Assembly: GCA_020354555.1 (NCBI GenBank)
Contig: CP070648.1
Location: forward strand, 3,691,257 to 3,736,607
Reading direction: 5' to 3'
Source of the DNA: Armatimonadota bacterium
GTDB taxonomy: Bacteria; Armatimonadota; Hebobacteria; GCA-020354555; CP070648
DNA: 45,351 nt
A model generated the notes under the pieces. The model had not been told where the DNA came from and searched no databases. It was given only the letters and a program-made list of their open reading frames with translations. Position numbers and translations under genes: made by a program. Shown piece by piece: positions 24,276-41,389 of this stretch. Numbering within the stretch: the stretch's first letter is position 1; each line of letters begins with the position of its first letter.

Positions 24276-24309
24276 GTTGTTATCGTTGGAAGCGGAAGTA
24301 GTTTCACGA

Positions 24310-25338
24310 ATGCTGGATACTCGCGTCGGCTCGGATGATGCACATTCTGGTGTATGGCGACGGGCGCCCCACAGCATCTGTGGCCTCGCCAGCTGTGCCT
24401 CGTGCGAGCACCATGTGAATGATGATTGCCCCGCGTGTCTGCGGGGGAACTCAAGGATGCGGCGCGGTGAAGGCACCGAGTGCGCTCTCTACACCTGCGT
24501 GAGGTCGAAGGGTGTACCGTCCTGCCGTGAGTGCGAATTGAGTTCTTGCCCAGTCCTTGAAGCGGGCGAGGAGATGGAGTGCAGTCTCGCCCGGAATCTC
24601 GCCGGCAAGCGGGGCGGCAGGTCGTTGGTCGAGGCACTTCTTGACCTTAGGTCTATGCGGCAGGGGCATTCTGCCGCGGATCTGCCGCCCCGTCTTATGC
24701 AGCGCTTGCCGCTGTACCTCGTGGCGCTTCACGAGTTGAGTCGGGACGGCGTTCAGCGCGTGGCCGCCGCTGAACTTGGGCTGCGCATCGGCATCTCGGC
24801 GGCGTCGGTGCGCAAGGATCTGTCCGCGGTCGGCCACTGGGGCCGACGCGGCGCGGGCTATTCGGTCGACGTCTTAAGCGAGAACCTGCGCCGCGCCGCG
24901 GGCTTGGCCGAGCCGCGCCATGCGGCTTGGCTGGGGTGTGAGCGGTTGTCGCGCTACCCGGGTGTGATCGAGGACTTCCGTAGCGTCGGGTGCATAATCT
25001 CCGCCGTCTTCTGTGATGATGGTAGACATGTCGGACAGGAGGTAGGTGGGCTCATCGTGAAGCCTGTTCGCGAATTGCCGCAGTCGGCGCGCAGTCTGGG
25101 CCTCACCGTGGCGGTGATCGCGCCGGAGAGTGATCTCGCGCAGGAGGTTGCCGAGATCGCGGCGTCGGCAGGGATTAGCTCGATCCTGAATCTGACGGAC
25201 CGGATTGTTCTGCCGGCGCAGGGCGCAACCATTGAGGACGTAAGTCCGTTGCGGGGGCTCGTGTCGCTGTTGCTGCGCACGCCGACGGCAGACAAATCTG
25301 AGGTCTTCGCCAGGGAAGCAGGTAGGCGCGATTCGTGA
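24310..25338 (+). CDS. Rex-like redox regulator with an N-terminal cysteine-rich (DUF3795-like) domain
   Basis: 342 residues from the ATG at 24310; a TTG at 24277 in the same frame would add 11. Residues ~12-90 contain 11 cysteines in a DUF3795-like arrangement (CGLASCASC, CPAC, ECALYTC, SCRECELSSC). Residues ~110-185 are the winged helix of Rex: LPLYLVALHELSRDGVQRV, SVRKDLSAVGHWGRRGAGYS. The rest follows the Rex Rossmann domain (VGCIISAVFCDD, VGQEVGGLIVKPVREL, VAVIAPESDLAQEVAEIA, GISSILNLTD). The glycine-rich NAD(H) motif is lost: the GxGxxG site reads WLGCERLSR. Canonical Rex represses respiratory genes until NADH rises. Here the Cys-rich domain may sense metal, Fe-S or redox state instead. 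The stop overlaps the hemA start (GTGA), as in known rex-hemA operons. Confidence 0.85.
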   Translation: MLDTRVGSDDAHSGVWRRAPHSICGLASCASCEHHVNDDCPACLRGNSRMRRGEGTECALYTCVRSKGVPSCRECELSSCPVLEAGEEMECSLARNLAGKRGGRSLVEALLDLRSMRQGHSAADLPPRLMQRLPLYLVALHELSRDGVQRVAAAELGLRIGISAASVRKDLSAVGHWGRRGAGYSVDVLSENLRRAAGLAEPRHAAWLGCERLSRYPGVIEDFRSVGCIISAVFCDDGRHVGQEVGGLIVKPVRELPQSARSLGLTVAVIAPESDLAQEVAEIAASAGISSILNLTDRIVLPAQGATIEDVSPLRGLVSLLLRTPTADKSEVFAREAGRRDS

Positions 25339-26696
25339 TTCGTTGCATTGGAATTAGCCACCGGCTGACGCCGGTTCATCGCCGAGAGAAGGTGGCCGTC
25401 GCTCCTGACGCCCTCTCGCTGATGCTTCAGCGCGCGCGCGAGCGCCTGAATGCCGAGGAGTGCGTTATCCTTTCCACGTGCAACCGCACTGAAATCTCCT
25501 TCGTCGGCGACGACACCAACGATCCCCAGGCGGTTGTGCTCGATCTCCTGCAGCTGGGCGATAGCGACCGCGCCGACATTCGCGCCAGTGAGGTCTATGC
25601 CCTTGCGGGCCACGATGCGGCCACCCATCTCGCCGAGGTCGCGGCAGGACTCGATTCCCTCATCCTGGGCGAGCACGAGATCATGGGTCAGGTCAAGGCT
25701 GCGTCCCGCGCCGCGCGCGACTGCGGGTGTGCCGGGCGCGTCTTGACCAGGCTGTTCGACCACGCTCTGCGCGCGGGCAAGCGCGCACGCGCGGAGACGC
25801 GCATCGCTTCCGGCATATTCTCGGTCGGCCACTGTGCGGCGCATGCTGCCAAGGAGGTGCTCGGTGATCTGAGAGGCAAGGCGCTGCTGGTGATTGGCGC
25901 CGGCCGCATCGCCGAATCCACCGCGAAGCACCTCGCGCACCAGGGGGCCGCACCTGTTACAGTGGCCAACCGTACCCTGGAGCGAGCCCGTGAAGTGGCA
26001 AACCGCCTCGGCGGCACCGCCGACACCATCGCCAACTTGCCCCGCCTGCTGACCACCGCGGATCTCGTCATCACGTGCACCTCGGCCCCTCACTTTATCC
26101 TCGAGGCCGATGAGGTGCGACGTGCGGCAGCGGAGCGCGCGGGACAGCCGCTGGTGGTGATAGATGTCAGCGTCCCTCGCGATGTCGACCCAAAGGCGAG
26201 TTCTGTCGCCGGGGTGCGCCTGTTCAATCTCGACGATCTGGAACCGTTAGTCGCCGAGAACGCTAAGGCACGCGAGGGCGAAGTCAAAGCCGCGCGCAGC
26301 ATCATCGCGGAGGAAGTCCAGTCATTCGAGGAGTGGCGGCTGCGGGGCGATATCGCCCCGCTGATCCGCGATATGCGGCGCAGTGTCGAGGCAATCAGGC
26401 AAACGTGCCTGCAACAAGTCCGCGGCAAGCTTGGTCACCTGTCATCGGAGGACCTGGAAGTCGTGGAGCGGCTGACCGATCTGCTGGTCAAGCGATTGCT
26501 CCACGCGCCGACCAAGGCCCTGCGGGCTCACCCCGATGGCGAGCAATTCACGCTCGCGGCCGCAGTGCAGGAGCTGTTTGAACTCGTCGAGCACGACGCG
26601 GCACACACCAAGGCTTCAAGTGACGCTTGCCGGGGCGCCACTGAAGATAGTCACTCCGTCCCCGGAGGGAGCGCTCATGCCAACTTCGAGTCGTAG
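25335..26696 (+). CDS. hemA: Glutamyl-tRNA reductase
   Basis: 453 residues, GTG start overlapping the Rex-like stop by four bases. Full-length GluTR: catalytic cysteine in LSTCNRTEI, SLILGEHEIMGQVK, the NADPH site LLVIGAGRIAESTAKHL, VIDVSVPRDVDP and the C-terminal dimerisation helices (LTDLLVKRLLHAPTKALR). It reduces glutamyl-tRNA to glutamate-1-semialdehyde, the first committed step of tetrapyrrole synthesis by the C5 route. The C-terminal ~30 residues are a low-complexity tail overlapping the next gene by 20 bases. Placement between a Rex-like regulator and multihaem cytochrome genes suggests that haem supply is matched to cytochrome production. Confidence 0.97.
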   Translation: MIRCIGISHRLTPVHRREKVAVAPDALSLMLQRARERLNAEECVILSTCNRTEISFVGDDTNDPQAVVLDLLQLGDSDRADIRASEVYALAGHDAATHLAEVAAGLDSLILGEHEIMGQVKAASRAARDCGCAGRVLTRLFDHALRAGKRARAETRIASGIFSVGHCAAHAAKEVLGDLRGKALLVIGAGRIAESTAKHLAHQGAAPVTVANRTLERAREVANRLGGTADTIANLPRLLTTADLVITCTSAPHFILEADEVRRAAAERAGQPLVVIDVSVPRDVDPKASSVAGVRLFNLDDLEPLVAENAKAREGEVKAARSIIAEEVQSFEEWRLRGDIAPLIRDMRRSVEAIRQTCLQQVRGKLGHLSSEDLEVVERLTDLLVKRLLHAPTKALRAHPDGEQFTLAAAVQELFELVEHDAAHTKASSDACRGATEDSHSVPGGSAHANFES

Positions 26697-29634
26697 CGTT
26701 ACTACCCAGTTGTTCGGCCTCGCGGCCCGGCAGCTCGACGGCTTTCGCCGTCGCCCGATGTGGCACTTATCACGCTTCGGCACAATCGTTGTCCTGGCGC
26801 TGGCGTGTCGGGTTTGCGCCAACGCGCCGGCGGCGTCGGAGCGCGAGTTGCCGATTCCCGGCATCGCCGCGCAGTGCGCCCAGTGTCACGAGGACCAGAC
26901 GGCGGCCTGGGCCAAGACGGTTCACCGGCGCACCGTGGATGCGCCTCAGTTGGCGGACGATCGCGAGGGCTGCGGCGGCTGTCACACCGGCTTGGCCGCG
27001 CATCTCGAGGATCCGTCCGCAACCCCGGCCGACCTGAAGACGCTTTCACGCGATCAAGTCGGCGCGATGTGCCTGTCGTGCCACAAGGGCGGCGGGCAGA
27101 TGATGTGGGGAACCACGGCGCACTCCAGGCTGCCACAGGCATGTCTCTCCTGTCACGATCCGCACGGCGGCGAGGGCCGCGCGATGCTGAGGCAGAGCGA
27201 CCCCGAGGTGTGCAGTCAATGCCATCCGCAGCAGGCGGCGGAGATGCACCTGCCCTCCCACCATCCGGTTCCCGAGGGCAAGATGGAATGCAGTGACTGC
27301 CATAACTCGCACGGCGATATCAATGGCAGCTTGGCGGCCGAGTCCAGTTCCGAGATGTGCTACCGGTGCCACGCGGAGAAGGCAGGGCCGTTCATGTACG
27401 AGCATGCGCCAGTGACGGAGGACTGCACCGTCTGCCACAAGGCGCACGGCGCGCAGAATGACCGCTTGCTCATCGTGGATGAGCCGATGCTGTGCCTGCA
27501 ATGCCACCCGGGCCATCACGATGGCCACCGCACGCCCCTGGTGCCCCTCGATACCTCAGAAGCAGGGGTGGCTGAGGCGATGACCGCCATTCACGGCTTC
27601 TATGACAAGTGCACCAGCTGCCACCCGCGCATCCACGGCAGCGACTTGCCGTCCGGCACGGACAATGGCACCTTCATGCCCGGGCGGCCTGCTTCGCCGC
27701 TCGAGCGCACCAGCAGCACCTCCCCCGCCGGGCCGTGGGCGCTGGCGGGCCTGGCGGCGCTGCCGCTTGACGCCGCCGGCGCCGCGTGGGGCTTCAGCGA
27801 CTTCGAGCTGGGCTCCATAGACGAGGAAGGTAGTCCGACCTACGTCCGCGAGTACGACGGCAAGAACTACGAGTTCCCGCGCTGGAAACTCGGCGTTGAC
27901 CAGTATGCCGAGGGCAGCGACTACCACTTGCGCCTGCGTGATCCCGCCGCGGGTGACGAGGCGGCAGAGATATACTTCGGCAGCCCGACGGTGAGTGGCG
28001 ACATCAAGTACGATGTCCTGACTCATCGCCTGCCGCGTTTTGACGATGTCGAAGGGCCGGTGGATTACCCCGGCAACAGCATTGAGACCACCGATCTCTC
28101 CAATGGTCGCCGCGACTTCGAGATCGAGCGCAACGTCACCGAGATCAACCTCGCCGCGCGCTGTCCCAAGTTGCGCAACGTGCGCTGGCTCGGCCGTTAT
28201 TGGCGCGAGTCGGAGCACGGCACGCAGCAGTTCACCTTCCTCGACCGCTGCACGAGCTGTCACAAGGTTCAGCTTGAGGAGCCGATCGAGCGGGTGACCA
28301 CCGAGGCGTCAGCCGGCGTGGAGATCGCCTCCGACGCGGCCGCCGTCCGTTACATGCACACTGAAGGCCGATTCAAGAATCGAGCCCCGGAGCTCGCGTA
28401 CGACTTTGATGAAGCACGAGGCTCCGTTTACAGCGGCCTGGCACCGCTGTTCGGCATGTCCGAGACCGAAACCAGCGCCGACGAGGTACGCTTGATGTTG
28501 GTGCCGGGATCCGCCGTGGCGCTCAGCGGACTATGGAGCAACAAGGAGCGCGACAATCTGTTCAACGGCTACGGGCTCGAGGTCCAGACCACAGGAGGCG
28601 GCGCTGGCTGGCGCATCGCACCCGACCTGAAGCTGACCGCCAGCTTCTTCAACTATGAGTTCGACAACGGCGTGTCCGACGGCATCTCTCGCGATCGCGA
28701 CACGTCGAACCTGGTGCTGCGCTACACCGCGTTGCCCTACTCGACACTGAGCGTTGGGTTCAGGCGCGACGACGTCGATCGCTCGAGTCACCACGACTTC
28801 GTGCCGCGCAATAGCGAGACCACCGCCCTGAGCGCCAATCTCGTCACGCGGCATCCGAGCGGCGCCAGTCTCAACATACGCTATCGCGACGCGAGCACCG
28901 ATGTCGAGGGCAACTATGATCCCGCTGCGGCACCGGCGCACTTCCCAGCACGCTGGATCACCGAGCCCGACGACGAGGAACTGCTGTCGGCGGTTGCCAG
29001 CTACGGACTCACGTCTCGGCTGCTTGGCACGTTGCTCTACTCCAAGCTCGATCGCGCGTGGACGGTCAACGAGCCGCTGCTGAGCGTGTTGCGCAGCGAC
29101 AACGACGAGATCACGACCAAGGGCGCGGAGTTGTATTACTCCATCGACGGGCGCACACGGCTGACGGCCGGCATCTACGATCAGGAAGGTAGCATGCGTT
29201 CGGACGTCACCTACGGCGCCGACATTTACACGCTCGAGGACGATCTGGGGAACCCCATTGCCGACTTCGACTTCATCGACTCGCACGCGGCGTTCGACTA
29301 CAACGCGCAGACGGTTCGCCTTGATGCGTCGCACTGGCTCACGCCGCGGCTGCGGCTGTTCGGGCGCTTCAACCGCACTCAGAGCGACGGCGCAACCGTC
29401 GCCAGTAACCTCGGCGACTACCTGGATCAGGATCCGGACCTCGACGGCGTGGCGCTGACGCTCAACCCGTTTGATATCACGACGAAGGACAAGTGGTTCG
29501 GGGTCGGCTACTTGGTCGATCCGTACACGGAACTTGTGTTGAGCTTCCAGCAGCGCGAATGGGTGAACGAGGACAACGCGAGTCAGGACGGATCGTACGA
29601 TCTGTGGCGCATCGGTGTGCGCAAGAAGTTCTGA
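26677..29634 (+). CDS. Decahaem c-type cytochrome (MtrA/DmsE-like) fused to an outer-membrane beta-barrel (MtrB/PioB-like)
   Basis: 985 residues. The ATG at 26677 has GGAGGGA at a normal distance and lies inside the end of hemA. After a signal-like segment (FGTIVVLALACRVCANAPAA), residues ~60-330 hold ten CxxCH motifs in DmsE/MtrA style (CHDPHGGEG, CHNSHG, CHKAHGAQN, CHPRIHG). A short Pro/Ser linker follows. The remaining ~630 residues show the alternating strands of a large barrel like MtrB/PioB (LRYTALPYSTLSVGFRRDD, WLTPRLRLFGRFNRTQSD) and end in Phe (RKKF), the outer-membrane assembly signal. An eleventh CxxCH (CTSCH, about residue 525) sits inside the barrel part. Normally MtrA and MtrB are separate proteins that form an electron conduit across the outer membrane. 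Confidence 0.85.
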   Translation: MPTSSRSVTTQLFGLAARQLDGFRRRPMWHLSRFGTIVVLALACRVCANAPAASERELPIPGIAAQCAQCHEDQTAAWAKTVHRRTVDAPQLADDREGCGGCHTGLAAHLEDPSATPADLKTLSRDQVGAMCLSCHKGGGQMMWGTTAHSRLPQACLSCHDPHGGEGRAMLRQSDPEVCSQCHPQQAAEMHLPSHHPVPEGKMECSDCHNSHGDINGSLAAESSSEMCYRCHAEKAGPFMYEHAPVTEDCTVCHKAHGAQNDRLLIVDEPMLCLQCHPGHHDGHRTPLVPLDTSEAGVAEAMTAIHGFYDKCTSCHPRIHGSDLPSGTDNGTFMPGRPASPLERTSSTSPAGPWALAGLAALPLDAAGAAWGFSDFELGSIDEEGSPTYVREYDGKNYEFPRWKLGVDQYAEGSDYHLRLRDPAAGDEAAEIYFGSPTVSGDIKYDVLTHRLPRFDDVEGPVDYPGNSIETTDLSNGRRDFEIERNVTEINLAARCPKLRNVRWLGRYWRESEHGTQQFTFLDRCTSCHKVQLEEPIERVTTEASAGVEIASDAAAVRYMHTEGRFKNRAPELAYDFDEARGSVYSGLAPLFGMSETETSADEVRLMLVPGSAVALSGLWSNKERDNLFNGYGLEVQTTGGGAGWRIAPDLKLTASFFNYEFDNGVSDGISRDRDTSNLVLRYTALPYSTLSVGFRRDDVDRSSHHDFVPRNSETTALSANLVTRHPSGASLNIRYRDASTDVEGNYDPAAAPAHFPARWITEPDDEELLSAVASYGLTSRLLGTLLYSKLDRAWTVNEPLLSVLRSDNDEITTKGAELYYSIDGRTRLTAGIYDQEGSMRSDVTYGADIYTLEDDLGNPIADFDFIDSHAAFDYNAQTVRLDASHWLTPRLRLFGRFNRTQSDGATVASNLGDYLDQDPDLDGVALTLNPFDITTKDKWFGVGYLVDPYTELVLSFQQREWVNEDNASQDGSYDLWRIGVRKKF

Positions 29635-29743: not shown

Positions 29744-31243
29744 ATGAATGAAGAAGATGGTCCGCGCCGGCCCGGACGGCCGGAGCAAAGGCGCCCGCCC
29801 GCCGGCCGCCCGCAGCATGAGGTCGCTCAATCTCACGCTGTGGGCGCCGATGCTATGGGCGCTTCGCCGTCCGGCCGCAACGGGCGCAAAGGCGTTTGGG
29901 CCTGGCTCTACTCTCCCGATCTGACGCTGTGGCTGCTGGGCCTGCTCATCGCCTGGATGGCGGTCGGCACGGTCGTCCCCCAGCACGCCAGGCGCGAGGT
30001 TTACGAGCGGGCCTTCGGCCAAGCATTCGGCGGCTTGATCGCGCGCAGTTCCCTGAGCGGCATTTACGGTTCCTGGTGGTTCATCGCACTGTTCGCCCTG
30101 CTCGGAGTGAATCTCGCGGCGTGCGTGGTCAAGCGTCTCGGGACGCTGCGGCGGGCGAAATCCGCGGCAGCAGCGGCGGTCACCGCGTCCCAGGTGCGAG
30201 GGCAGCGCGCCGTCGCCGAGTTCACGGCGAAGCTATCCCTCCAGGACGCAGCGCAGCGACTGACGCAGGTCTTGCGCCACCGAGGGTATGACGTGTCGGT
30301 GGTCGACCCAGGCGCGGGGGAAGCCGCGGCGCTGCGCGCCCGGCGCGGCAGGGCTCGAGCGTGGGGGCCGCTTGTCGTGCATCTCGGGCTGCTCGTCCTA
30401 CTCGTGGGGGCAGCGTACGGACGGTGGCCGTCCCTGGCTTTTGACCAGCCGGCCGACGTGCGGGCTGGCGAGACTCATCGCGTTGAGATCGGCGATCTGT
30501 CGTTCGGGATTCGCCTGCTGGACGCGGGCATCGAGACCACACCCGAAGGCGCACCATCCCAGTACTGGGCGGAGACGCAGATCGTGGACGGCGGCAAGGT
30601 GGTGCGCGATGTGAGGATCACGCCGAATCACCCGCTGCGCTATCGCGGCACCAATGTCGTATTGAACAGCCTGTATCCGCTCTCCGCTCCTGACTACGCG
30701 GTCGAGGTGGCGAAGGGTGACTCGGTGTCATACGTGCCGGTGGTGCTCGACGAGCACGGTCACGTGGATATGATGGCCAGCGTGACGCACGTGGAAGACC
30801 CGCCGTGGCTGGCGTGGGTGAGCGACTTCCGCCCTGCGTCGTCGCAGGACGAACTCCCTGCCGCGCTGGTTAGTGTGGACGAGAGCGGCGCGGTGAGTCC
30901 CGACCGGCGGGACGTAGGCTGGGTGAGTGCCGGAGGCATTGAGTACAACGGCGTGCATTTTGAACTGGTGGAGGCAAGGGGGGGCAAGCAGGTTCAACTG
31001 GGTGTCCATCGCGATCTCGGCATACCGCTGGTGTGGACCGGGTTCGGGCTGATGCTGGTGGGCTCCGTGCTGGCATTCTTCGTCACCCGCCGGGACATCG
31101 TCGCGAGGCTGGCTTCCGGGCCGGGGCGGGGGACGACGATACTACTGGGGGCGAGCGCGGTGGGATTCGGTCCCGCGCCCGACCGCACGGTGCGCTCGCT
31201 GCAGGCCGATTTGTCGGCTTCGGAGGAGGTGGATACGGCATGA
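29744..31243 (+). CDS. resB: ResB/Ccs1-family cytochrome c biogenesis protein
   Basis: 499 residues. A Pro/Arg-rich cytosolic tail of ~48 residues precedes the membrane part (LTLWLLGLLIAWMAVGTVVP, WWFIALFALLGVNLAACVVK, GPLVVHLGLLVLLVGAAYG), a large outer domain (~210-420) and a last helix (IPLVWTGFGLMLVGSVLAFF), which is the Ccs1/ResB layout. With CcsA it forms the system II haem lyase that delivers haem to CxxCH motifs outside the membrane. CcsA is two genes further on, with a cytochrome between. ATGA overlap with that cytochrome gene. Confidence 0.9.
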   Translation: MNEEDGPRRPGRPEQRRPPAGRPQHEVAQSHAVGADAMGASPSGRNGRKGVWAWLYSPDLTLWLLGLLIAWMAVGTVVPQHARREVYERAFGQAFGGLIARSSLSGIYGSWWFIALFALLGVNLAACVVKRLGTLRRAKSAAAAAVTASQVRGQRAVAEFTAKLSLQDAAQRLTQVLRHRGYDVSVVDPGAGEAAALRARRGRARAWGPLVVHLGLLVLLVGAAYGRWPSLAFDQPADVRAGETHRVEIGDLSFGIRLLDAGIETTPEGAPSQYWAETQIVDGGKVVRDVRITPNHPLRYRGTNVVLNSLYPLSAPDYAVEVAKGDSVSYVPVVLDEHGHVDMMASVTHVEDPPWLAWVSDFRPASSQDELPAALVSVDESGAVSPDRRDVGWVSAGGIEYNGVHFELVEARGGKQVQLGVHRDLGIPLVWTGFGLMLVGSVLAFFVTRRDIVARLASGPGRGTTILLGASAVGFGPAPDRTVRSLQADLSASEEVDTA

Positions 31244-32187
31244 CCAGAGCGAGAATCATCGTCATAGGTTGCGTCGTGGCGGCGGCGTTGGTGGCGCCCG
31301 CGATGGGCAGAGACGGCCTCGAGGGCTATGCAGGGGTCAAACTGTGCGCCGCGTGTCACAAGAAGAGCGACGAGCAAATCGTGCAGAAGCAGCCACTTAG
31401 CGCGCACGGCGCCGCTCTCTGGGCCGTGGACGACAAGGGCCCGGCGCACAAGGTGCTCGGCGACTTCGGGGCTGACGCGGGGTTCGCGCAGGCGGACGTC
31501 GCATACGTCGTCGGCAAGGGCGTGCGCGCCCAGGCGTACCTGGGTGCCGAGTTGAATGCACTGCCCAAGGAGTGGTGGGTCGCGAGCAAGCAGTGGGAAC
31601 CGGTGCCGGCGGGCGAACCAAAGAAGAGCTGCCTCGGCTGCCATACGACGGGGTACGACCCCGCGACCGGAAAGTGGAGTGACCCCGGCGTTACGTGCGA
31701 GGCGTGCCACGGGGCGGGTTCAAGCCACGCCAAGAGCAAAGACAAGCTCGCGTCTATCGGACGCCCGCAGGAACTGCCGGCAGAGCGCCAGGCGATGATT
31801 TGCGGCCGCTGCCACGCGCGGGGCAGCAATCCGGATGGGCTGCCGTTCGCGCTTGGCTTCAAGCCCGGCGATGACTTGGCGCAATCGTTCAAGCTGGACG
31901 CAACCTGGGAGCCGGGTTCCCGGTACAGCCAGTACAACGACTTCGCGAACAGCAAACACCTGGCCCAGGGCGTCGTGTGCAGCACCTGTCACGATCCCCA
32001 CGGCGTCAGGAGCGGTCAGCCATATCAGTTGCACAAGCCGGCGGATGAGCTGTGCCTGGACTGCCACAAGGCGCCGCTCGCGGGCGACCAGCACAGCCCG
32101 CCCCAGAATTGCGCGGGATGCCACATGCCCAAGGGCAGCCATCAGTTCGAGAAGCCACAGGCCGCGTCTGCTTCGGGAGCGGGGTAG
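31240..32187 (+). CDS. Secreted seven-haem c-type cytochrome (c554-like family)
   Basis: 315 residues. The ATG at 31240 overlaps the resB stop and has GGAGGAGG upstream. Signal peptide: RARIIVIGCVVAAALVAPAMG. Seven CxxCH motifs are present (CAACH, CLGCH, CEACH, CGRCH, CSTCH, CLDCH, CAGCH), in the style of cytochrome c554-like proteins (KSCLGCHTTGYDPATGKW, CEACHGAGSSH). The long gap between the first and second motifs (about 90 residues) includes ALPKEWWVASKQWEPVP. Likely a periplasmic electron carrier or reductase, or a haem substrate of the surrounding ResB/CcsA pair. Substrate unknown. Confidence 0.9.
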   Translation: MTRARIIVIGCVVAAALVAPAMGRDGLEGYAGVKLCAACHKKSDEQIVQKQPLSAHGAALWAVDDKGPAHKVLGDFGADAGFAQADVAYVVGKGVRAQAYLGAELNALPKEWWVASKQWEPVPAGEPKKSCLGCHTTGYDPATGKWSDPGVTCEACHGAGSSHAKSKDKLASIGRPQELPAERQAMICGRCHARGSNPDGLPFALGFKPGDDLAQSFKLDATWEPGSRYSQYNDFANSKHLAQGVVCSTCHDPHGVRSGQPYQLHKPADELCLDCHKAPLAGDQHSPPQNCAGCHMPKGSHQFEKPQAASASGAG

Positions 32188-33041
32188 TGATCGAGGCCGA
32201 GGCGACATTCTTCAAGCTCTGCTTCGGGCTGTATCTCGCAGGGGCGCTGGGCTACGTGCTCTACGCCGCTTCTCGGTGGGAGCGCGTTGGGCAGCTCTCC
32301 ACGGCTCTCGCCTGGCTCGGGCTGGGGGCCAACTCTGCGGTGTTAGTGGCGCGCGGCATCGTCGCCGGCCGCGTTCCCTACGTCACGATGTACGAGTATC
32401 TGACGGCTTTCGCCTGGGCGGTGGCCGCGATATACCTCGTCCTGGAGTGGCGGTACGCCAGCGCGCGGGCGGACCTGCGCCCTGGCGGCGCGCTAGCGCT
32501 GTTCATCGCGGTGGGACTCCTCGGCTATGCGTCGAGCCTGTCGCCGGAGTTGAAGCAGGCGGAGACGCTGATGCCCGTGCTCAAGAGCAACTGGCTCATC
32601 TTCCATGTCTTCACCGCGGTCGTCGGATACGGGGCGGCGGGTGTGGCGACCGCGCTTGCGGTGCTTTACCTCGCCCGCAACCGGTGGCCTGGCGAGAAGT
32701 CGTGGCTGCGTCGCCTTCCCTCGCCCCCGGATCTCGACCAGGCGGTGTACCGCTGCATCGCGTTCGCGTTTCCGTTCCTGGCCCTGGTCAACATCACCGG
32801 CGCGATCTGGGCGTATGACGCGTGGGGGAGGTACTGGGGCTGGGATCCCAAGGAAACGTGGTCACTTATCACGTTGCTGGTGTACGCGTTCTACCTCCAC
32901 GCGCGACTGCGAGCGGGGTGGCGGGGTGTGAAGGTCAACGTCATCGCCATCGTCGGCTTTGCCGTCATCATGTTCACGTTCATTGGCGTCAGCTTCCTGG
33001 CAATCTTTTCGGAGAGTGTGCACTCCTACGCCGGCGACTAG
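32187..33041 (+). CDS. ccsA: CcsA/CcmC-family haem handling protein
   Basis: 284 residues. The GTG at 32187 shares one base with the preceding TAG; the longer upstream frame is not coding. Eight or so TM helices, an MYEY segment (YVTMYEYLTAF), a conserved His (NWLIFHVFTAVVGYGAAG) and the tryptophan-rich haem-binding WGWDPKETWSL (WWD domain), followed by HAR. It is the haem-channel half of the system II haem lyase together with ResB. Confidence 0.94.
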   Translation: MIEAEATFFKLCFGLYLAGALGYVLYAASRWERVGQLSTALAWLGLGANSAVLVARGIVAGRVPYVTMYEYLTAFAWAVAAIYLVLEWRYASARADLRPGGALALFIAVGLLGYASSLSPELKQAETLMPVLKSNWLIFHVFTAVVGYGAAGVATALAVLYLARNRWPGEKSWLRRLPSPPDLDQAVYRCIAFAFPFLALVNITGAIWAYDAWGRYWGWDPKETWSLITLLVYAFYLHARLRAGWRGVKVNVIAIVGFAVIMFTFIGVSFLAIFSESVHSYAGD

Positions 33042-33093: not shown

Positions 33094-34974
33094 GTGCGTC
33101 TTGAAGGGAGGGCGAGACGACACGGGCGCCGAGCGGCTCCGGCGCGCGGCGCCGCGTGCCGTGGCGTCTCACCGGCCGGCGACGGTCGCCGCGCCCGTAC
33201 GGTCGCGGCGGTCTTCATGCTGGTCCTGGTGTGTGTCACCGTCCTCGTCCAGCCGGCGACGGCCGCGGTGCGCGCGGGGATATGTCTCGGCTGTCACGGC
33301 GCACCGACGGCAGAGCGGGCCGGGGCGGTCGAAGCGCGCAAAGCCGCGTTCGTTGATGAGCTTGTCCTGAGGTCATCGGTTCACAGTGACCTCGAATGCG
33401 CGGACTGCCACCGAGATGCGCGCACCGTGCCACATGCCAAGCGCCTGAGCCCAGTGGACTGCACGCGCTGCCATTACGTTCAGCCCTTGCCGCCGCTCGG
33501 CGTCGCCGAGCAAGCCGTCTCCGGCCTACACGAACGGACAGCGGACAGAGGCAAACTGCGCTCTCCAGCCTGCCGCGATTGTCATGGCGATCACAACATC
33601 AGATCTCCCCTGAATCCCCCGTCACTCGTGAGCGGCACGCGCGCGCCCGCGACCTGCGGCACGTGCCACGAGAAGGCGAGACACGATTACGAGCAGAGCG
33701 TCCACGGCACGGCGCTGCAAGCAGGGGATCGCAGCGTGCCATCGTGCCCGGACTGCCACGTGGAACATCCCCGGGACGCAGGGCGCCTGCCGGATGTCGC
33801 CCGCGGCGGCGTCATCGCGACGTGTATAGCGTGCCACGACGACCCGGGGCTTCAGCGCCGCTATGCCCTGGCGGGTGAGCGTTTCGCCACCTACTTGGGC
33901 ACCTACCACGGCGCTGCGACGGCGCTCGGATCAAGCCGAATGGCAAACTGTGCAAGCTGCCACGAGGCGCACTTGATCCTGCCCTCGAGCGACCCCCGTT
34001 CGAGCGTGAACCACGCCAATCTGCCGCACACCTGCGGGCATTGCCATCCGGGCGCGGGGGCCAACTTCCCGATCGGCACGGTTCACCTGCGCCCATCCCC
34101 GACACAGGACCGCGCGGTGTTCTGGGTCAAGATCGCGTATCAGGTTTTCATCGCCGGGCTCATGCTGGCGTTCCTGGCGTACATCGGCCTCGACCTGCTG
34201 GCGCGGCTACGCCGGCGCATCGCCGCGGGCCACCGGGCTGCGCGCGGAGAAGCGGAGCCTGAGTTCGAGAGGCTCACCCTCGCCCAACGCATCCAGCACT
34301 GGGTGCTGATCGCGACGTTCCTGGTGCTCATGTTCACAGGTCTTCCCGTCATGGTGCCGGGTGCAGAGCTTTCCCGAAGCGTCGTCACGCTATTGGGCGG
34401 CGCGGGGGCGCGAGCCATCATCCACCGCGTGGCGGCTCTGCTGCTCATCGGGCTCACCGCGTTCCACCTCATGTACGTGCTCTTCTCTCGGCGGGGCTAT
34501 TGGGAGTTCAGGCAGCTCATCCCGCTCCCCCGCGACCTGCTCCAACTTGTGCACATGCTCCTCTTCTACTCCGGCTTGACGGAGACGCGCCCCCGTTTCG
34601 ACCGCTACAACTACATCGAGAAGTTCGAGTATCTTGCCGTGGGTTGGGGCTCAGTGGTCATGATCACGACCGGGATTCTCCTGTGGTCGCCAGTGCTCAC
34701 TCTCGCAGCGCTTCCCAAGTGGGTGATGGACGTCGCCGTGGTCGCCCACGGCTGGGAGGCGATCATGGCCTTCCTGGCCATCATCATCTGGCACATGTAT
34801 AACGTTCACTTCAACCCCTCGGTCTTCCCGATGAGCAGGATTTGGCTCACGGGGAAGATCGGCTTGCAGGAGCTGCGCGAGAATCACCCGCTGGAGTACG
34901 AGCGGATGATCGCGCATGACTCGGGAAACCCTGCCGAGACTCAATCGCCGGAGCCGACGGGCCGGTCCGACTAG
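33094..34974 (+). CDS. Nine-haem c-type cytochrome fused to a membrane cytochrome b domain (CbcL-like)
   Basis: About 626 residues. The start is uncertain: GTG at 33094 is proposed; no ATG lies before the signal segment (TVAAVFMLVLVCVTVLVQP). Nine CxxCH motifs fill residues ~70-315 (CLGCH, CADCH, CTRCH, CRDCH, CGTCH, CPDCH, CIACH, CASCH, CGHCH). The C-terminal ~290 residues form a FdnI/HydC-type cytochrome b with haem His candidates in RIQHWVLIATF, HRVAALLLIGLTAFHLMYVLF and AHGWEAIMAFLAIIIWHMYN. This nine-plus-b layout is that of Geobacter CbcL, an inner-membrane quinol-cytochrome oxidoreductase used in metal respiration. By analogy it would move electrons from menaquinol to periplasmic cytochromes. 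Confidence 0.85.
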   Translation: MRLEGRARRHGRRAAPARGAACRGVSPAGDGRRARTVAAVFMLVLVCVTVLVQPATAAVRAGICLGCHGAPTAERAGAVEARKAAFVDELVLRSSVHSDLECADCHRDARTVPHAKRLSPVDCTRCHYVQPLPPLGVAEQAVSGLHERTADRGKLRSPACRDCHGDHNIRSPLNPPSLVSGTRAPATCGTCHEKARHDYEQSVHGTALQAGDRSVPSCPDCHVEHPRDAGRLPDVARGGVIATCIACHDDPGLQRRYALAGERFATYLGTYHGAATALGSSRMANCASCHEAHLILPSSDPRSSVNHANLPHTCGHCHPGAGANFPIGTVHLRPSPTQDRAVFWVKIAYQVFIAGLMLAFLAYIGLDLLARLRRRIAAGHRAARGEAEPEFERLTLAQRIQHWVLIATFLVLMFTGLPVMVPGAELSRSVVTLLGGAGARAIIHRVAALLLIGLTAFHLMYVLFSRRGYWEFRQLIPLPRDLLQLVHMLLFYSGLTETRPRFDRYNYIEKFEYLAVGWGSVVMITTGILLWSPVLTLAALPKWVMDVAVVAHGWEAIMAFLAIIIWHMYNVHFNPSVFPMSRIWLTGKIGLQELRENHPLEYERMIAHDSGNPAETQSPEPTGRSD

Positions 34975-35117: not shown

Positions 35118-37097
35118 ATGAGAGCGATCGCACGAAAAATATGGCGCTGGCTGCGGGCCGGGATAACGCGGCGCGTCACGATACCATGGGTTTGCTGGCG
35201 CATCCCGGTGGGCATCATCCTGGCCGTTATCGTCGTCCTCGGCATGGGCACCGGAGTTGCCCTGCACGAGACGAGCCGGCCCGTGTTCTGCCTCTCATGC
35301 CACGAGATGGGGCTGCCGGTGAGCACCTGGCGCATCTCGACCCATCACGACGTCCCGTGTGCGGAATGCCATATCATGCCCGGCACGATCAACATGTTCC
35401 GCAGCAAAGTGGCGGCGTTGCGCCAGGTCTACCTGCATGTCCGCGGTCCCGTCCAGAGCTCCGCCATCCAGGCTCACGTGCCCGACGCCAACTGCAAGGC
35501 GTGCCATCCGCGGACGCGTGAACTCGTGGTCTATCACACGATCCAGATCACCCACCAGGCGCACTGGGATCGGGGCACCAAGTGCACGTTCTGCCATGGG
35601 GAGATGGTGCACGGACCGCAACCTGCTTTCGGGAATCCGCCGCGGATGGAGACGTGCTACAAGTGCCACGACGGCGAGCGCGCGCCCAACGAGTGCTCAA
35701 CGTGCCATATCGTGCTGGGGCAGCGGAGCCCAGTCACTTTTCGTCCGGAGTGGGTTGAGGCGCACAAGGAGAATATCCGGCAGCACGGCGAGTCATGCAG
35801 CCGGTGTCATCGCTCGACCTTCTGCGACAACTGTCACCGCACCGCCGATCCACACGCTGCCGACTGGGTCGCTGTGCATCCCAAGGAATTCCGCGCCAAG
35901 CCCAAGAGCTGTCGCGTGTGCCACGCGCTGCCGGGCGAAGGCGAGGAGATGTCATTCTGCAAGGACTGCCATGCCCTGCGCCGGGCTCATAGCCTGGACT
36001 GGGTCAGCACTCATCCCGAGGGGTTCAAGCGGGATCCCAAGGACTGCGCCCGGTGCCACGAGGAGCGCTTCTGTGCGGATTGCCATGCCATCTACCGCCA
36101 TCATCCCGACGACTGGCTGCGCACGCACCCGGCCCAGGCGCGCGCCAAGCCTGACGGTTGTCGAGTGTGCCATACCGAGCAGTACTGCGGCCGATGCCAC
36201 CAGCAGGCGGTGCCGAAGACGCACGATGCGCAATGGCGACAGCAACATGGCGCAGCGGTCAACGCTGGGGAAGGTGACTGCGTCGTCTGCCACCGACCGG
36301 ACTTCTGTCAGACTTGCCACAGATCCCAGGCCGGCCGGCCGCGCTCTCATGACCCGCAGTGGTCGCGGACACACGGAACGACGGCGCTGACCGGCGAAGC
36401 CGCGTGCCGCATTTGTCACGAAAGCTCCTACTGTGAATCGTGCCACCGCCTGCCGATGCCGCATCCGCAGGGCTGGTCGGACGGCCACCGGCCGGCGGCG
36501 AAGCGCGACCGGAGCGTGTGCGCGCGCTGCCACAACGAAAACTTCTGTGTCGGCTGCCACCGCAGCACGCAGCCCAAGTCACACCAGGACGGCTGGGTCG
36601 CGCGTCACGGCACCCAGGCAAAGGCCGACGCCAAGACGTGCAGGACGTGTCACACAGACAGTCTGTGTCTGGCGTGCCACCGCGGGGTCAGGATGCCTCA
36701 CCCCACGGACTGGCCTGCCGCGCACGGCAGCCAGGCGGCAACCCCCGAGAAGCGGCAGCAGTGCGCAGCGTGCCACGCCGCGTTGTACTGCACGAAGTGC
36801 CATGGCGTGGCGATGCCTCATCCCGACGACTGGGCCGGCGACCACGGCGCTCAGGCGGCGGCATCCCCCTCGACCTGCGGGAAATGCCACCGTGCCGATC
36901 ATAACGACTGCGCGACGTGTCACGCCGCGCTTGCGCCGTCCGACCACGAGTCGCCCGACTGGAAATCCGAGCATGGCAACGTCGGCGCGGGCAATATGGA
37001 CCTGTGCGCACTGTGCCACGGAGAGGACAGCTGCACCGAATGCCATGCGCAGACATCCGCGCGTCCCCGCCAGAAGGGAACCCCCAGACATGGCTAG
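35118..37097 (+). CDS. NapC-anchored 28-haem c-type cytochrome with tandem di-haem repeats
   Basis: 659 residues. One N-terminal TM anchor (VGIILAVIVVLGMGTGVAL) leads into a NapC/NirT-like head with six CxxCH motifs (from FCLSCHEMG and CAECH to CSTCH). From residue 227 to the end, 11 units of about 38-45 residues follow. Each has CxxCH, a short spacer usually ending in an aromatic-Cys pair (FC/YC), a second CxxCH, then H-x-x-DW and HP/HG positions that could supply the second axial His. The total is 28 CxxCH. NapC-type heads take electrons from quinols; the long di-haem array could act as a periplasmic wire. The predicted ribosome-binding site is weak. I do not know a named family with this layout. 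Confidence 0.9.
   Translation: MRAIARKIWRWLRAGITRRVTIPWVCWRIPVGIILAVIVVLGMGTGVALHETSRPVFCLSCHEMGLPVSTWRISTHHDVPCAECHIMPGTINMFRSKVAALRQVYLHVRGPVQSSAIQAHVPDANCKACHPRTRELVVYHTIQITHQAHWDRGTKCTFCHGEMVHGPQPAFGNPPRMETCYKCHDGERAPNECSTCHIVLGQRSPVTFRPEWVEAHKENIRQHGESCSRCHRSTFCDNCHRTADPHAADWVAVHPKEFRAKPKSCRVCHALPGEGEEMSFCKDCHALRRAHSLDWVSTHPEGFKRDPKDCARCHEERFCADCHAIYRHHPDDWLRTHPAQARAKPDGCRVCHTEQYCGRCHQQAVPKTHDAQWRQQHGAAVNAGEGDCVVCHRPDFCQTCHRSQAGRPRSHDPQWSRTHGTTALTGEAACRICHESSYCESCHRLPMPHPQGWSDGHRPAAKRDRSVCARCHNENFCVGCHRSTQPKSHQDGWVARHGTQAKADAKTCRTCHTDSLCLACHRGVRMPHPTDWPAAHGSQAATPEKRQQCAACHAALYCTKCHGVAMPHPDDWAGDHGAQAAASPSTCGKCHRADHNDCATCHAALAPSDHESPDWKSEHGNVGAGNMDLCALCHGEDSCTECHAQTSARPRQKGTPRHG
35796..37046 (+). 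repeat. Eleven in-frame di-haem repeats in the 28-haem cytochrome
   Basis: Protein-level tandem repeat of ~417 residues: CxxCH-(4-11)-CxxCH, then about 24 residues holding a conserved W and a following H. Unit lengths for the first four are 38, 45, 38 and 40 residues. The DNA has diverged, so this is an old expansion rather than a recent duplication. Confidence 0.88.
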
Positions 37098-37179: not shown

Positions 37180-39891
37180 ATGCGCGAGACCGTAACAGGG
37201 ACGTACGTGTCACGCAACTGCGGCAAACACCCAGACCGAACGCTGTGCTCCCACGGGACGAGAGTGGCAATCCTCGGCGGGGGGCCGGCGGGCGCCTTCT
37301 GCGCGATCTGGCTCAGCAGGCTGGCACGACAGGCCGGACACGACATGGAGATCGTCGTGTTCGACCACAAGAGCTTCGAGAAGCCCGGCCCGGCCGGATG
37401 CAACATGTGCGCCGGCATCATCCCCGACTCGCTCGTGCGCAACATGCGGCGCTTCGGCATCGAACTCCCCGAGCACGTCATCCAGCGCCGCATCGCCGGT
37501 TATTGTCTGGAGACCAAAGGCGGCGCAGTCGACATCCCCACTCCGCCCGGCACCCAGCTCTACAGTACCTTCCGCGGTCCCGGGCCCCTGGGTATGTACC
37601 CGTCGGCGCGACAGGGGTTCGACTACTTTCTCCTGCGCGAAGCGGAGCAGCGCGGTGTCACGTATCTCAACAAGATGGTGGTTGACGTCGCAGTGCCGCC
37701 CTCGCCGTCGGAGCCGTGCGTGGTTGTCTCGCGGGACGGAGCGCGACACGAGGCGGACATCGTGGTCGGCGCCTTCGGCGTCAACAGCAACCTGGTGCGC
37801 ATTTTCGAGCGCCTTGGCTTCGGCTACCGCGCGCCCGAGGTGGCGCGCGCGTTTCAGGCGGAGATTCCGGTTGACCCTGATTTCATCGAGCGCGAGATGG
37901 GCGACCGCGTGTTCATCTTCGCGCTCGGCCTTCCGCATCTCGAGTTCGCTGCGATCACCCCCAAGCGCCAGCACGTGACGGTGACGCTGATCGGCGCCCA
38001 CCCGCGTCGCCCCGACCTTGAGGAGTTCCTCGATTCCCCTTACGTCAAGCGGCGCATGCCGGCGGGATGGCAAGCGCCGGGACGGTTCTGCGCTTGCGGG
38101 CCTTGGCTGCCGATCACGGCGGCGCGCAACGCGGTCAGCGACCGCATCCTGATCATCGGCGATGCCCACGTGGCACGCTACCTCAAGAACGGGATCGAGT
38201 CCAGCTTCTACACTGCGTGCTGGGCCGCCCGGGCGATTGTTGCAGGCGACTTGCGGGCGGACGCGCTGGCTCGCCGGTATGTGTCGCGCTGTCAGTACTA
38301 CGTGCGCGACAATCGCTACGGACGCGCGCTGTTCAGGCTCCATGACATCATCTCATCATCGCCCACCGTGGCCCGGTCGCACGTCGCGGTCGCGCGCGCG
38401 GAGCAGGCCGCGCGCGGACGCCCGAAGCGCCTCAGCGCCGTGCTGTGGGGCATGTTCACCGGCAATATACCGTACCGATCAATCGCGTCCCGGCTGCTCG
38501 ACCTGCGCCTGCACTGGGCGATCGCGCGCGCGCTCGCGCGCGACGTGGCCGCTCGGATGCGAATCCCCGCTTTGCGCCCGCGCCGCGCGCGCCGCCCAAT
38601 CTCACCTGCGCTCGGGCCGTTGGGCTCGGAGCAGACGGTGCTCATCATCGGCGGCGGGCCCGCCGGCGCAGCGTGCGCGATAACTCTGGCCCGGGCGGGG
38701 CGGCTGCTGCGGCGCGTACCGCGGATCATCCTGATCGAGGAAAAGCGCTTCGGCGAGCACCAGAACCAGTGTGCCGGCGTCATCTCACCGCCCGGGCTGC
38801 AAATGATAGAGGGAATGCTGGGCGCGCGTCTCCCCAACGGCCTTGCCCAAAGGGATATTCGCGGCTACACGCTTCACGCCAATGGGGGCACCATCGCGCT
38901 TGACGGTGACGAACTCGGCGAACGCGCCAACGCGTTGCGGCGCGTGCAACTCGACGGCCTGCTGCTGCGAGCCGCGCAACGGGCAGGCGCGCAAGTCGTT
39001 CACGCCCGCGCGGACGATGTCGAGGTCAACCCCGACGGCGTGGTCGTGTACACCGATAGCGGGACGTTCCACGGCGATGTTGCGGTGGGCGCGTTCGGGC
39101 TCGACCCCGGTATCGCGCAGGCGTTCGCGCGCGCCACGCGGTACAGGCCGCCCGCATCGCTGGAGACCCTGGCGTGCAAGCTGCATCCCGCCGGGCTCGA
39201 CCACATACCAGGCCTGCTGGACGACCACATTCACGTCTTCTTGCCCCGTGACCGCACGGTTGAGTTCGGCGCGTTGGTGCCCAAGAGCAATCACGTGACG
39301 GTTATCATCGCAGGGCGCCGGCTCCGCGAGGCCGACATGACGACATTCCTGTCGCGGTATGCGGGGCGCCTGCTGCCGCCGGCGTGCGACATCCAAGGCG
39401 CCTTCAAGGGATCCTTTCCCCTCGGCCCCGCGGGCTGCCTTTACGGTGACCGCTACGTCGTCCTCGGCGATGCAGCGGGCCTGGTCCGGCCGTTCAAGGG
39501 CAAGGGGATCAACGCCGCCATCGAAGCCGGTTCCCTGGCTGCGACGACGATGTTGACGCGCGGCGTGTCGCGGCAAGCATTCGATTACTTCGCCGCCAGC
39601 CGTCGGCACCTGACGGGTGACTTGCAGTACGGCCGCGTCGTCAGGATGCTGACGGGGCTGGTGTCGCGCTGGGGAGTACTGCCCGCGTTCGTCGCCGAAG
39701 CGCGGGACGATGCTGATCTGCGCCAGGCGCTGTTCGACTGCGTGTCGGGGCGAACCAGCTATCGCAGCGTCGTGCTGCGCAAGTGCAACCTGCGGCTCAT
39801 CCCGCGCATGGCGTGGAAAAGCGGGTTGCACCTGCTGCTGCGGGGGAAGCGCGCCGCCCGCGCCGAGGATGCGCCGTCTCTGAAGTCATAG
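37180..39891 (+). CDS. Tandem double flavoprotein of the geranylgeranyl-reductase-like FAD family
   Basis: 903 residues made of two homologous halves. Half 1: FAD site VAILGGGPAGAFCA (GGGPAG at 33-38), GCNMCAGIIPDSL, second FAD motif DRILIIGDAHVARYLKNGI. Half 2 from ~residue 485: VLIIGGGPAGAACA, NQCAGVISPPGL, DRYVVLGDAAGLVRPFKGKG and INAAIEAGSLA. Both end with similar helical tails, including TGNIPYRS and SGRTSYRS. Family members reduce isoprenoid double bonds or act as other FAD oxidoreductases; normal ones have a single unit. Its position directly after a 28-haem cytochrome and before a haem-pathway enzyme suggests exchange of electrons with that cytochrome or modification of the quinone, but neither is shown. 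The start could be slightly downstream of the ATG at 37180. Confidence 0.88.
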   Translation: MRETVTGTYVSRNCGKHPDRTLCSHGTRVAILGGGPAGAFCAIWLSRLARQAGHDMEIVVFDHKSFEKPGPAGCNMCAGIIPDSLVRNMRRFGIELPEHVIQRRIAGYCLETKGGAVDIPTPPGTQLYSTFRGPGPLGMYPSARQGFDYFLLREAEQRGVTYLNKMVVDVAVPPSPSEPCVVVSRDGARHEADIVVGAFGVNSNLVRIFERLGFGYRAPEVARAFQAEIPVDPDFIEREMGDRVFIFALGLPHLEFAAITPKRQHVTVTLIGAHPRRPDLEEFLDSPYVKRRMPAGWQAPGRFCACGPWLPITAARNAVSDRILIIGDAHVARYLKNGIESSFYTACWAARAIVAGDLRADALARRYVSRCQYYVRDNRYGRALFRLHDIISSSPTVARSHVAVARAEQAARGRPKRLSAVLWGMFTGNIPYRSIASRLLDLRLHWAIARALARDVAARMRIPALRPRRARRPISPALGPLGSEQTVLIIGGGPAGAACAITLARAGRLLRRVPRIILIEEKRFGEHQNQCAGVISPPGLQMIEGMLGARLPNGLAQRDIRGYTLHANGGTIALDGDELGERANALRRVQLDGLLLRAAQRAGAQVVHARADDVEVNPDGVVVYTDSGTFHGDVAVGAFGLDPGIAQAFARATRYRPPASLETLACKLHPAGLDHIPGLLDDHIHVFLPRDRTVEFGALVPKSNHVTVIIAGRRLREADMTTFLSRYAGRLLPPACDIQGAFKGSFPLGPAGCLYGDRYVVLGDAAGLVRPFKGKGINAAIEAGSLAATTMLTRGVSRQAFDYFAASRRHLTGDLQYGRVVRMLTGLVSRWGVLPAFVAEARDDADLRQALFDCVSGRTSYRSVVLRKCNLRLIPRMAWKSGLHLLLRGKRAARAEDAPSLKS

Positions 39892-40175
39892 CGCCCGCCG
39901 GCGGGGCGCGCAATGGACGAACCAGTCGCGATTGCGGCGGTCTGGAGCAGCGCCGTAACGGGTACAATTCTCCTAATCGTGGTTCGCAGGTCTATCTCAC
40001 GATGGAGGGCGTCGCCCGCGAGGCGTACGCGGCGGTTGCCGCGCGCGTCGTAGTCATGTATGATCCCTAGCGCCATCTGCGCCGCGCGGGTGCGAGGCGA
40101 TCGCTGTCATGGGCAGCGCCAATGCCGGGCCGGTCGCTGCGCTTGGACGAGTACGCTCCATCTCGTTGGTTGTCC

Positions 40176-40192
40176 GGAGGAGGCAGCACTTG
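40176..40192 (+). promoter_or_regulatory. Ribosome-binding site setting a TTG start for ahbC
   Basis: GGAGGAGG lies six bases before TTG at 40190. The protein from this TTG begins exactly where AhbC proteins normally begin (IGFTKLLCGTATVSGAL), so it is preferred over the ATG at 40109. Confidence 0.8.
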
Positions 40193-41389
40193 ATCGGATT
40201 CACGAAACTCCTATGCGGCACGGCAACCGTGTCCGGCGCGCTGCGCCAGGTCAGCCAGGGCGGTCAGGAGCCCGGTCTGCTCCAGTTCACGACGGCGGAT
40301 CGCCCGCTGGTGGTGTGGAACATGACGACGCGGTGCAACCTGCGCTGCGTCCATTGCTACAACGATTCGTCGGAGGCATCGCGGCGTCCTGAGCTTACCA
40401 CCGCCGAGGCGGAGGCGCTCATCGACGACCTGTCGCAGATGGGCGTCCCGGTGCTGCTGTTCTCGGGTGGTGAGCCGGTGCTGCGGCCGGATGGCTATCA
40501 ACTCGGTCGCTACGCAAGCGACCGAGGGCTCCGCGCGGTGCTGTCAACGAACGGGACGCTCATCACCCCTGAGGTGGCGCAGCGACTGAAAGACGCGGGT
40601 TTCCAGTATGTCGGCATCTCGATCGACGGCCTCGCCGAGCGGCACGATGCGTTCCGGCGCAAAGCGGGCGCCTCTGCCGCCGCCTGGGACGGCCTGCGCA
40701 ACGCCCGCACCGCCGGCTTGAGGAGCGGCGTCAGGTTCACCGTCACCCGCGACAACGCCGACGATCTGCCCGGCGTCATCGGGCAGGCCGTGGCTGAGCA
40801 GGCGGACCGCTTCTGCCTCTACCATCTCGTCTACGCCGGGCGCGGCGCCGATCTGCCGCAGCGCGATCTCTCCGCGGCACAGCGGCGCGAGTTGATTCAA
40901 TGGCTCATCGGCAAGACGAAAGAGCTGCACCAGGAAGGCAGGAAGATCGAGATCCTGACCACGGACAACCACGCCGACGGGATCTACTTGTACCGCGAAA
41001 TCGCGGCGCGCGATCCCGGGCGGGCGGAGGAGGTCCTGCAGCTGCTCGCCATGCACGGCGGCTGCTCGGCAGGCCGGAAGTTCGCCAATATTGACGTCAC
41101 CGGGGATGTCCATGCGTGCCAGTTCTGGGGCCACGAATCACTGGGCAACGTGCGCGACCGGCCATTCTCGGCGATCTGGAACGACTCCAGCCACCCGCTC
41201 ATGGGGCGCCTGAAGCAGATGCCGCTCGGGGTCGGCGGCCGCTGCGGCGAGTGCGGGTTCAAGGATTACTGCGGCGGCTGTCGCATCCGCGCCGCAGCGA
41301 TTCACGGCGATCCCTGGGGGGCGGATCCCACGTGCTATCTCACCGACGACGAGATCTCCGGGCCTGCGCCGCCGCAGGCGTCCGGTTGA
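40190..41389 (+). CDS. ahbC: Radical SAM enzyme, 12,18-didecarboxysiroheme deacetylase
   Basis: 399 residues. N-terminal IGFTKLLCGTATVSGAL and LLQFTTADRPLVVWNMTTRC are typical of AhbC/NirJ-like proteins. The radical SAM cluster is CNLRCVHC, followed by VLLFSGGEP, LSTNGTLI, YVGISIDGL and FCLYHLVYAGRG. The C-terminal auxiliary cluster region contains CGECGFKDYCGGC, then PTCYLTDDEI. AhbC removes the acetate side chains of 12,18-didecarboxysiroheme to give Fe-coproporphyrin III in the siroheme-dependent haem pathway. NirJ (haem d1 synthesis) and AhbD are relatives, so the exact step is likely but not certain. The location next to multihaem cytochrome genes fits a haem supply role. Confidence 0.85.
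   Translation: MIGFTKLLCGTATVSGALRQVSQGGQEPGLLQFTTADRPLVVWNMTTRCNLRCVHCYNDSSEASRRPELTTAEAEALIDDLSQMGVPVLLFSGGEPVLRPDGYQLGRYASDRGLRAVLSTNGTLITPEVAQRLKDAGFQYVGISIDGLAERHDAFRRKAGASAAAWDGLRNARTAGLRSGVRFTVTRDNADDLPGVIGQAVAEQADRFCLYHLVYAGRGADLPQRDLSAAQRRELIQWLIGKTKELHQEGRKIEILTTDNHADGIYLYREIAARDPGRAEEVLQLLAMHGGCSAGRKFANIDVTGDVHACQFWGHESLGNVRDRPFSAIWNDSSHPLMGRLKQMPLGVGGRCGECGFKDYCGGCRIRAAAIHGDPWGADPTCYLTDDEISGPAPPQASG

Follow-up and report, generated by a model that had tools for sequence, protein, structure and literature searches.

In model organisms, the crossing of the periplasm in extracellular respiration is explained by diffusing shuttle cytochromes, which are invoked because the known parts are too short. 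Cytochromes proposed to span the periplasm are known as PCC3 from Sideroxydans, Leptothrix and others, and carry 21-27 haems in repeats (PMC5566968, PMC10734462). For peptide-minimised, wire-like cytochromes, defined by less than 5 kDa of peptide per haem, the relation of haem number to chain length gives about 27 haems for a periplasm of about 200 Å (PMC7096707), and this estimate makes a wire reading of a long haem array testable. A survey of haem counts gave 4-5 for CymA, 6-10 for ImcH and 3-23 for CbcL homologues, with ImcH usually having three membrane helices, an atypical CX3CH and 6-10 haem motifs (PMC6295460).

The locus described here lies in a window (the whole stretch of DNA that was analysed, 45,351 nucleotides) from an Armatimonadota genome, of which Candidatus Hebobacterum abditum is a class-mate. 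Its central gene encodes a 28-haem cytochrome, read here with a probability of roughly 0.6 as an inner-membrane-anchored haem wire that would lead from the quinone pool to an MtrA-MtrB fusion and bridge the periplasm wholly or for the greater part. The features of the cluster, with the parts of the 28-haem protein listed after its gene, are as follows:

24277-25338, + strand: Rex-like redox repressor (PF06971, PF02629), its start probably further in
25335-26696, + strand: HemA, glutamyl-tRNA reductase, haem synthesis
26677-29634, + strand: MtrA/DmsE-like decahaem domain fused to an MtrB/GSU2204-like outer-membrane barrel; start at 26677 or 26758
29744-31243, + strand: ResB, cytochrome c maturation system II (PF05140)
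31240-32187, + strand: exported 7-haem cytochrome, its start overlapping the end of ResB
32190-33041, + strand: CcsB, cytochrome c maturation system II (TIGR03144, 213.3 bits, cut-off 187.6); start approximate
33217-34974, + strand: CbcL-like protein with 9 CxxCH and a b561-type cytochrome b domain (PF01292, 46 bits; PF14522)
35118-37097, + strand: 28-haem cytochrome, 659 aa, apo-protein 73.5 kDa, 2.6 kDa of peptide per haem
35208-35273, + strand: single membrane helix, about residues 31-52, N-terminal side positive (predicted model and hydropathy)
35208-35615, + strand: NapC/NirT-like head, haems 1-4 (PF03264; CxxCH at residues 58, 81, 126 and 156)
35547-35708, + strand: Cytochrome_C7-like junction, haems 5-6, residues 144-197 (PF14522)
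35751-37046, + strand: 11 di-haem units, haems 7-28, residues 212-643, consensus HPxxWLxxHGxxAxxxxxxCxxCHExxFCxxCH
37180-39891, + strand: tandem geranylgeranyl-reductase-like flavoprotein, immediately downstream (TIGR02032, 166.5 bits, cut-off 158.8)
40109-41389, + strand: AhbC/NirJ-like radical SAM haem-synthesis protein (TIGR04546, 457.6 bits, under the equivalog cut-off of 650)

The open reading frame of the 28-haem cytochrome runs from an ATG at 35118 to a stop at 37097 and holds 28 CxxCH motifs; neither CxxxCH nor CxxxxCH occurs in the full 659-aa sequence. It has one hydrophobic helix, placed at residues 31-52 by the model and within a hydropathy segment from residue 20 on. Residues 31-166 match PF03264 (NapC/NirT) with 41.6 bits, above the curated cut-off of 24.1, and the NrfH model TIGR03153 gives 45.5 bits, short of its cut-off of 134.2; on these profile scores, the head is classed as NapC/NirT by the Pfam definition and not as an NrfH equivalog. 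Head haems 1-6 are spaced 23-45-30-24-13, and PF14522 scores 62.4 bits over the whole protein. Haems 7-28 then follow as 11 pairs in a unit of about 39 aa with the pattern HxxxWxxxH-x10-CxxCH-x4-CxxCH. Within a pair, the CxxCH motifs are mostly 9 residues apart (11 or 16 in two pairs), 29-34 residues lie between successive pairs, and in the intervening H-x3-W-x3-H each Trp is flanked by two His. Ten of the 11 units are complete, the first His being absent from unit 1. When all array residues except the CxxCH motifs, left in place, were permuted (2000 shuffles), H..W..H-CxxCH motifs numbered 0.04 on average and 2 at most, against the 10 observed. The counts bear out the preliminary description, which had proposed 28 haems, 11 di-haem repeats, a NapC-like head with one membrane helix and a regular array of CxxCH pairs, the columns of which are also kept in orthologues. 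Only its "Trp and His" between pairs needs amending, in that both residues are present but as two His and one Trp. With 2.6 kDa of peptide per haem overall and 2.2 kDa in the array alone, the protein falls under the 5 kDa limit that defines peptide-minimised, wire-like cytochromes.

Orthologues of the 28-haem protein share 38-65% identity. Across 12 from Armatimonadota, the 28 motif His, 25 further His and Met64 are invariant, and the His and Trp columns of the units vary little or not at all. A haem bound by its motif His takes a second ligand, which the 25 additional His would supply for almost all of the haems; from the alignment, bis-His ligation is thus expected nearly throughout, with a Met in the haem-1 motif (CLSCHEM, ending in Met64) as in NrfH. 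In an alignment with D. vulgaris NrfH (2j7a_C, E 1.4e-12), Lys97 corresponds to Lys82, His76 to His61 and Gln103 to Asp89. In NrfH, Lys82 is the quinol-site Lys, and Asp89 lies near haem 1; this Asp is a trait of characterised quinol-oxidising members that is outside the Pfam definition. Lys97 is kept in 11 of the 12 orthologues, and the segment just after it is deleted in part in three. NapC-family proteins are usually quinol dehydrogenases, and it is plausible from these residues that the head is tied directly to the quinone pool.

If the head is instead an anchor or relay only, then the neighbouring CbcL-like cytochrome b/c would oxidise quinol and feed the 28-haem protein. This is a serious contender, rated a little below even odds. 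The CbcL-like gene, with its 9 haems and cytochrome b561 domain, is directly upstream in 10 of the 12 orthologous loci (window included), and its product is, judging by its domains, a probable quinol oxidase; the loss of the Asp89 equivalent and the deletions after Lys97 also favour a relay. However, the haem-1 CxxCHxM, His76 and Lys97 are all retained, and the usual function of the family argues for a head that oxidises quinol itself. In either case, the 28-haem protein could serve as the wire proposed here.

At the far end of the proposed wire, the MtrA-MtrB fusion matches TIGR03508 with 215.7 bits (cut-off 192.2), PF09699 and, weakly, PF11854; its open reading frame has 11 CxxCH in all, the eleventh inside the barrel part. 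The downstream flavoprotein comprises two geranylgeranyl-reductase-like domains in a 903-aa open reading frame, is found beside the cytochrome cluster in two further loci (L033 and L045), and may modify a quinone. Elsewhere in the window, a regulator (19609-22107, - strand) combines a cyclic-nucleotide-binding domain, a sigma-54 activator domain and Fer4_5 iron-sulphur segments. In addition, a single open reading frame at 98-2026 joins the C-terminal part of a GTP-type PEP carboxykinase to an aminotransferase domain, either by fusion or by frameshift. In the genome as a whole, one NapC-family protein is encoded, and a search with two Pfam models found no small c7/c3-type shuttle. Elsewhere in the genome, searches with the Paired_CXXCH, C7 and c3 models led to a second 7-haem cytochrome, paralogous to the one in the cluster (L102:538-1854), an 8-haem protein that is possibly HAO-like (L103:1587-3071, - strand) and an UshA-like protein with 4 haem motifs (L104:381-1727). 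A plasmid search returned one distant NapC match only.

The same neighbourhood bears on a second and rather unlikely alternative, namely that electrons flow inward, from Fe(II) or another outside donor to the quinone pool. The MtrA-MtrB fusion has no adjacent MtrC-like gene, as in Mto/Pio systems, and Fe(III) reducers as well as Fe(II) oxidisers have CbcL/MtrH/MtoC homologues (PMC6295460); nevertheless, nothing in the cluster fixes the direction.

The reading as a periplasm-spanning wire also depends on length. A full-length model built on 12 orthologues has a pLDDT of 48 and was left uninterpreted. A haem-free three-unit model, made from an alignment of 38 non-overlapping three-unit windows in register, reached a pLDDT of 78 and has two helices per unit, with a pTM of 0.40 that leaves the relative placement of units uncertain. 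It had no Foldseek match in the PDB, which is a weak test for a short helical haem-free fragment. Against PDB sequences, the unit profile gave weak CxxCH-driven matches only. OmcS was found at no better than E 0.65, so the array has no detectable relation to OmcS-type sequences, in line with the preliminary description, which had called its regularity unlike typical OmcS/OmcZ-type sequences. Nanowire subunits contain 6, 4 and 8 haems each. Nanowire cytochromes rise 34-58 Å per subunit (PMC12954529), and with those haem contents, 28 haems at nanowire rises are computed to extend about 203-238 Å. The Shewanella periplasm measures 235 +/- 37 Å (PMC5971433). It is suggestive that 28 haems would approximate one periplasm width, the comparison being with the published 27-haem estimate and the Shewanella width.

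Unit numbers, which the preliminary description had proposed to compare between relatives, vary around a common value. Among full-length-type proteins, 28 haems are commonest (n=11), followed by 32 (n=3) and 30 (n=1). Some Armatimonadota relatives have 25 or 20, and short relatives in Actinomycetota, including Geothermocultor, have two units (10 haems) or three (12). The head spacing is nearly constant across relatives, and it is the number of units after the head that varies. On the head tree, proteins with 28 haems are scattered among many families, and no fewer than 3 separate changes are required for 32, several forks being weakly supported. Homologues lacking the repeats, which the preliminary description took to speak against its reading, were found for the head only: Myxococcales heads (L053-L057) carry no units, as expected of a modular fusion. 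In Actinomycetota, 10-haem NapC-type proteins are encoded as adjacent pairs, with a third protein of 12 haems further on (L042:7995-9713, L043:7812-9683 and L044:7893-9683). A 21-haem protein from Spirochaetia (L049:7890-9515) repeats a head-like spacing of 25-37-24-13-21 before its di-haem pairs.

The units also differ from one another in a conserved manner. The best-matching unit was at the same position in 597 of 1210 comparisons, a fraction of 0.49 where chance would give 0.09; this was strongest for units 1-8, and units 9-11 are less distinct. Units 1-8 are closer to their counterparts in other species than to their neighbours within the protein; because they keep this positional identity across species, the array is old. 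On the same grounds, the regular array was judged not to stem from recent duplication. Length changes probably occur at the distal end of the array, to judge from these unit comparisons.

If the array stored electrons as a capacitor, or served soluble partners as a hub of short reach, it would not need to span the periplasm. Many haems per protein permit storage, two- to three-unit relatives occur, and the cluster encodes an exported 7-haem cytochrome. On the other hand, such a role has no obvious need for 28 haems held across families with position-specific units, and it is considered improbable. An enlarged NrfH/TorC-type donor to a periplasmic reductase such as NrfA is scarcely credible, despite the resemblance of the head to NrfH in the alignment and TIGR03153 scores given above, since that score is short of the cut-off, the genes nearby encode a CbcL-like protein and MtrA-MtrB, and a genome search found no NrfA family protein; an Nrf role was accordingly rejected.

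The di-haem unit is not confined to NapC-type heads. In Armatimonadota, it also follows a cytochrome b/b6 (bc1-type) head and a mono-haem cytochrome c domain, with 6-8 units in one polypeptide and 13-17 haems in total. Examples are L045:10517-12697 (13 haems) and L018:1-2385 (15 haems), the two for which Pfam was run, and similar loci are L016, L017, L019, L020, L022 and L028-L030. These polypeptides can be read as bc-type complexes that carry a wire of their own. Similarly, MtrA-like decahaem proteins carry C-terminal di-haem units (L034:9835-10794, L035:9743-11017 and L036:9658-10776), as does another MtrA-like multihaem protein (L039:1087-1998). There are 2-3 units in each of these four loci, and in L034-L036 the gene is directly downstream of the 28-haem gene. 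In L014 and L015, di-haem units occur in proteins without a recognised head.

Overall, the wire reading would operate as follows. The N-terminal helix and NapC-type head would hold the protein at the quinone pool, and electrons would enter from quinol at its own head or via the upstream CbcL-like cytochrome b/c. They would then pass through haems 5-6 and the 22 putatively bis-His haems of the 11 units, which would bridge the periplasm wholly or for the greater part, and reach the outer-membrane MtrA-MtrB fusion at its periplasmic end; the direction may be outward, in respiration of extracellular acceptors, or inward. A direct wire to MtrA-MtrB would need no diffusing shuttle. In this scheme, we infer the geometry and length of the haem chain, its partners and its direction. 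The wire interpretation of the preliminary description draws support from the NapC-type anchor, the 11 units, the near-complete bis-His set, the electron-transfer neighbourhood and the estimate of about 27 haems per periplasm. Counting against it are the full-length pLDDT of 48, the Gln in place of Asp89 and the relatives with 2-3 units. Some of these relatives, of the same architecture, come from diderm groups, and thus the head-plus-unit design is by itself no proof of spanning. Additionally, a shuttle function is still conceivable for the exported 7-haem cytochrome (31240-32187). More tentatively, and with somewhat more doubt than confidence, the array may be a "conductive ruler", a one-polypeptide wire whose unit number is selected near the periplasm width and whose unit is a plug-in module, joined in Armatimonadota also to cytochrome b-c heads and MtrA-like conduits.

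In the open-access literature searched, no description of the 28-haem architecture was found, and its closest counterparts each share part of it. Like NapC/NirT proteins (NrfH, NapC, CymA, TorC), it has one N-terminal helix, a tetrahaem head, a haem-1 CxxCHxM, and conserved equivalents of the quinol-site Lys and His61; unlike them, it has Gln for the haem-1 Asp, and 28 haems compared with 4-5 in CymA homologues. ImcH of Geobacter, which serves quinol oxidation for extracellular respiration, likewise extends a NapC-like head by c-haems, whereas the 28-haem protein has one helix, no CX3CH and its haems in regular pairs. In CbcL/MtrH/MtoC, a membrane quinol oxidase is also fused to many c-haems (3-23), but the anchor is of the cytochrome b561 type, and the CbcL-like protein is here the neighbour and not the 28-haem protein itself. 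The OmcS, OmcE and OmcZ nanowires are similarly peptide-poor multihaem chains with bis-His ligation; however, they are polymers of separate extracellular subunits, and the unit-profile match to OmcS is insignificant (E 0.65).

If the wire reading is true, the periplasm would be crossed in a different way, by a covalent wire of about 28 haems anchored in the inner membrane, and the natural variants with 10, 12, 20, 25, 28, 30 and 32 haems would form a ready-made length series. The findings also add a widespread multihaem architecture to Armatimonadota, a phylum in which little is known of extracellular electron transfer. The nearest precedent is PCC3, which also has at least 20 haems in repeats. 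In the PCC3 system as described, the cytochrome is a separate periplasmic protein, accompanied by an inner-membrane protein of 5 helices, an extracellular multihaem cytochrome and a large porin, which sets it apart from a protein with a covalent NapC head encoded beside CbcL and an MtrA-MtrB fusion. Periplasm-spanning cytochromes have been proposed before; the new elements are the covalently joined anchor of the quinol-dehydrogenase type, a unit number that is conserved, and the occurrence of the unit with heads of other types. The 28-haem protein may be regarded as a variant of the PCC3 idea with its own quinol-dehydrogenase-type anchor.
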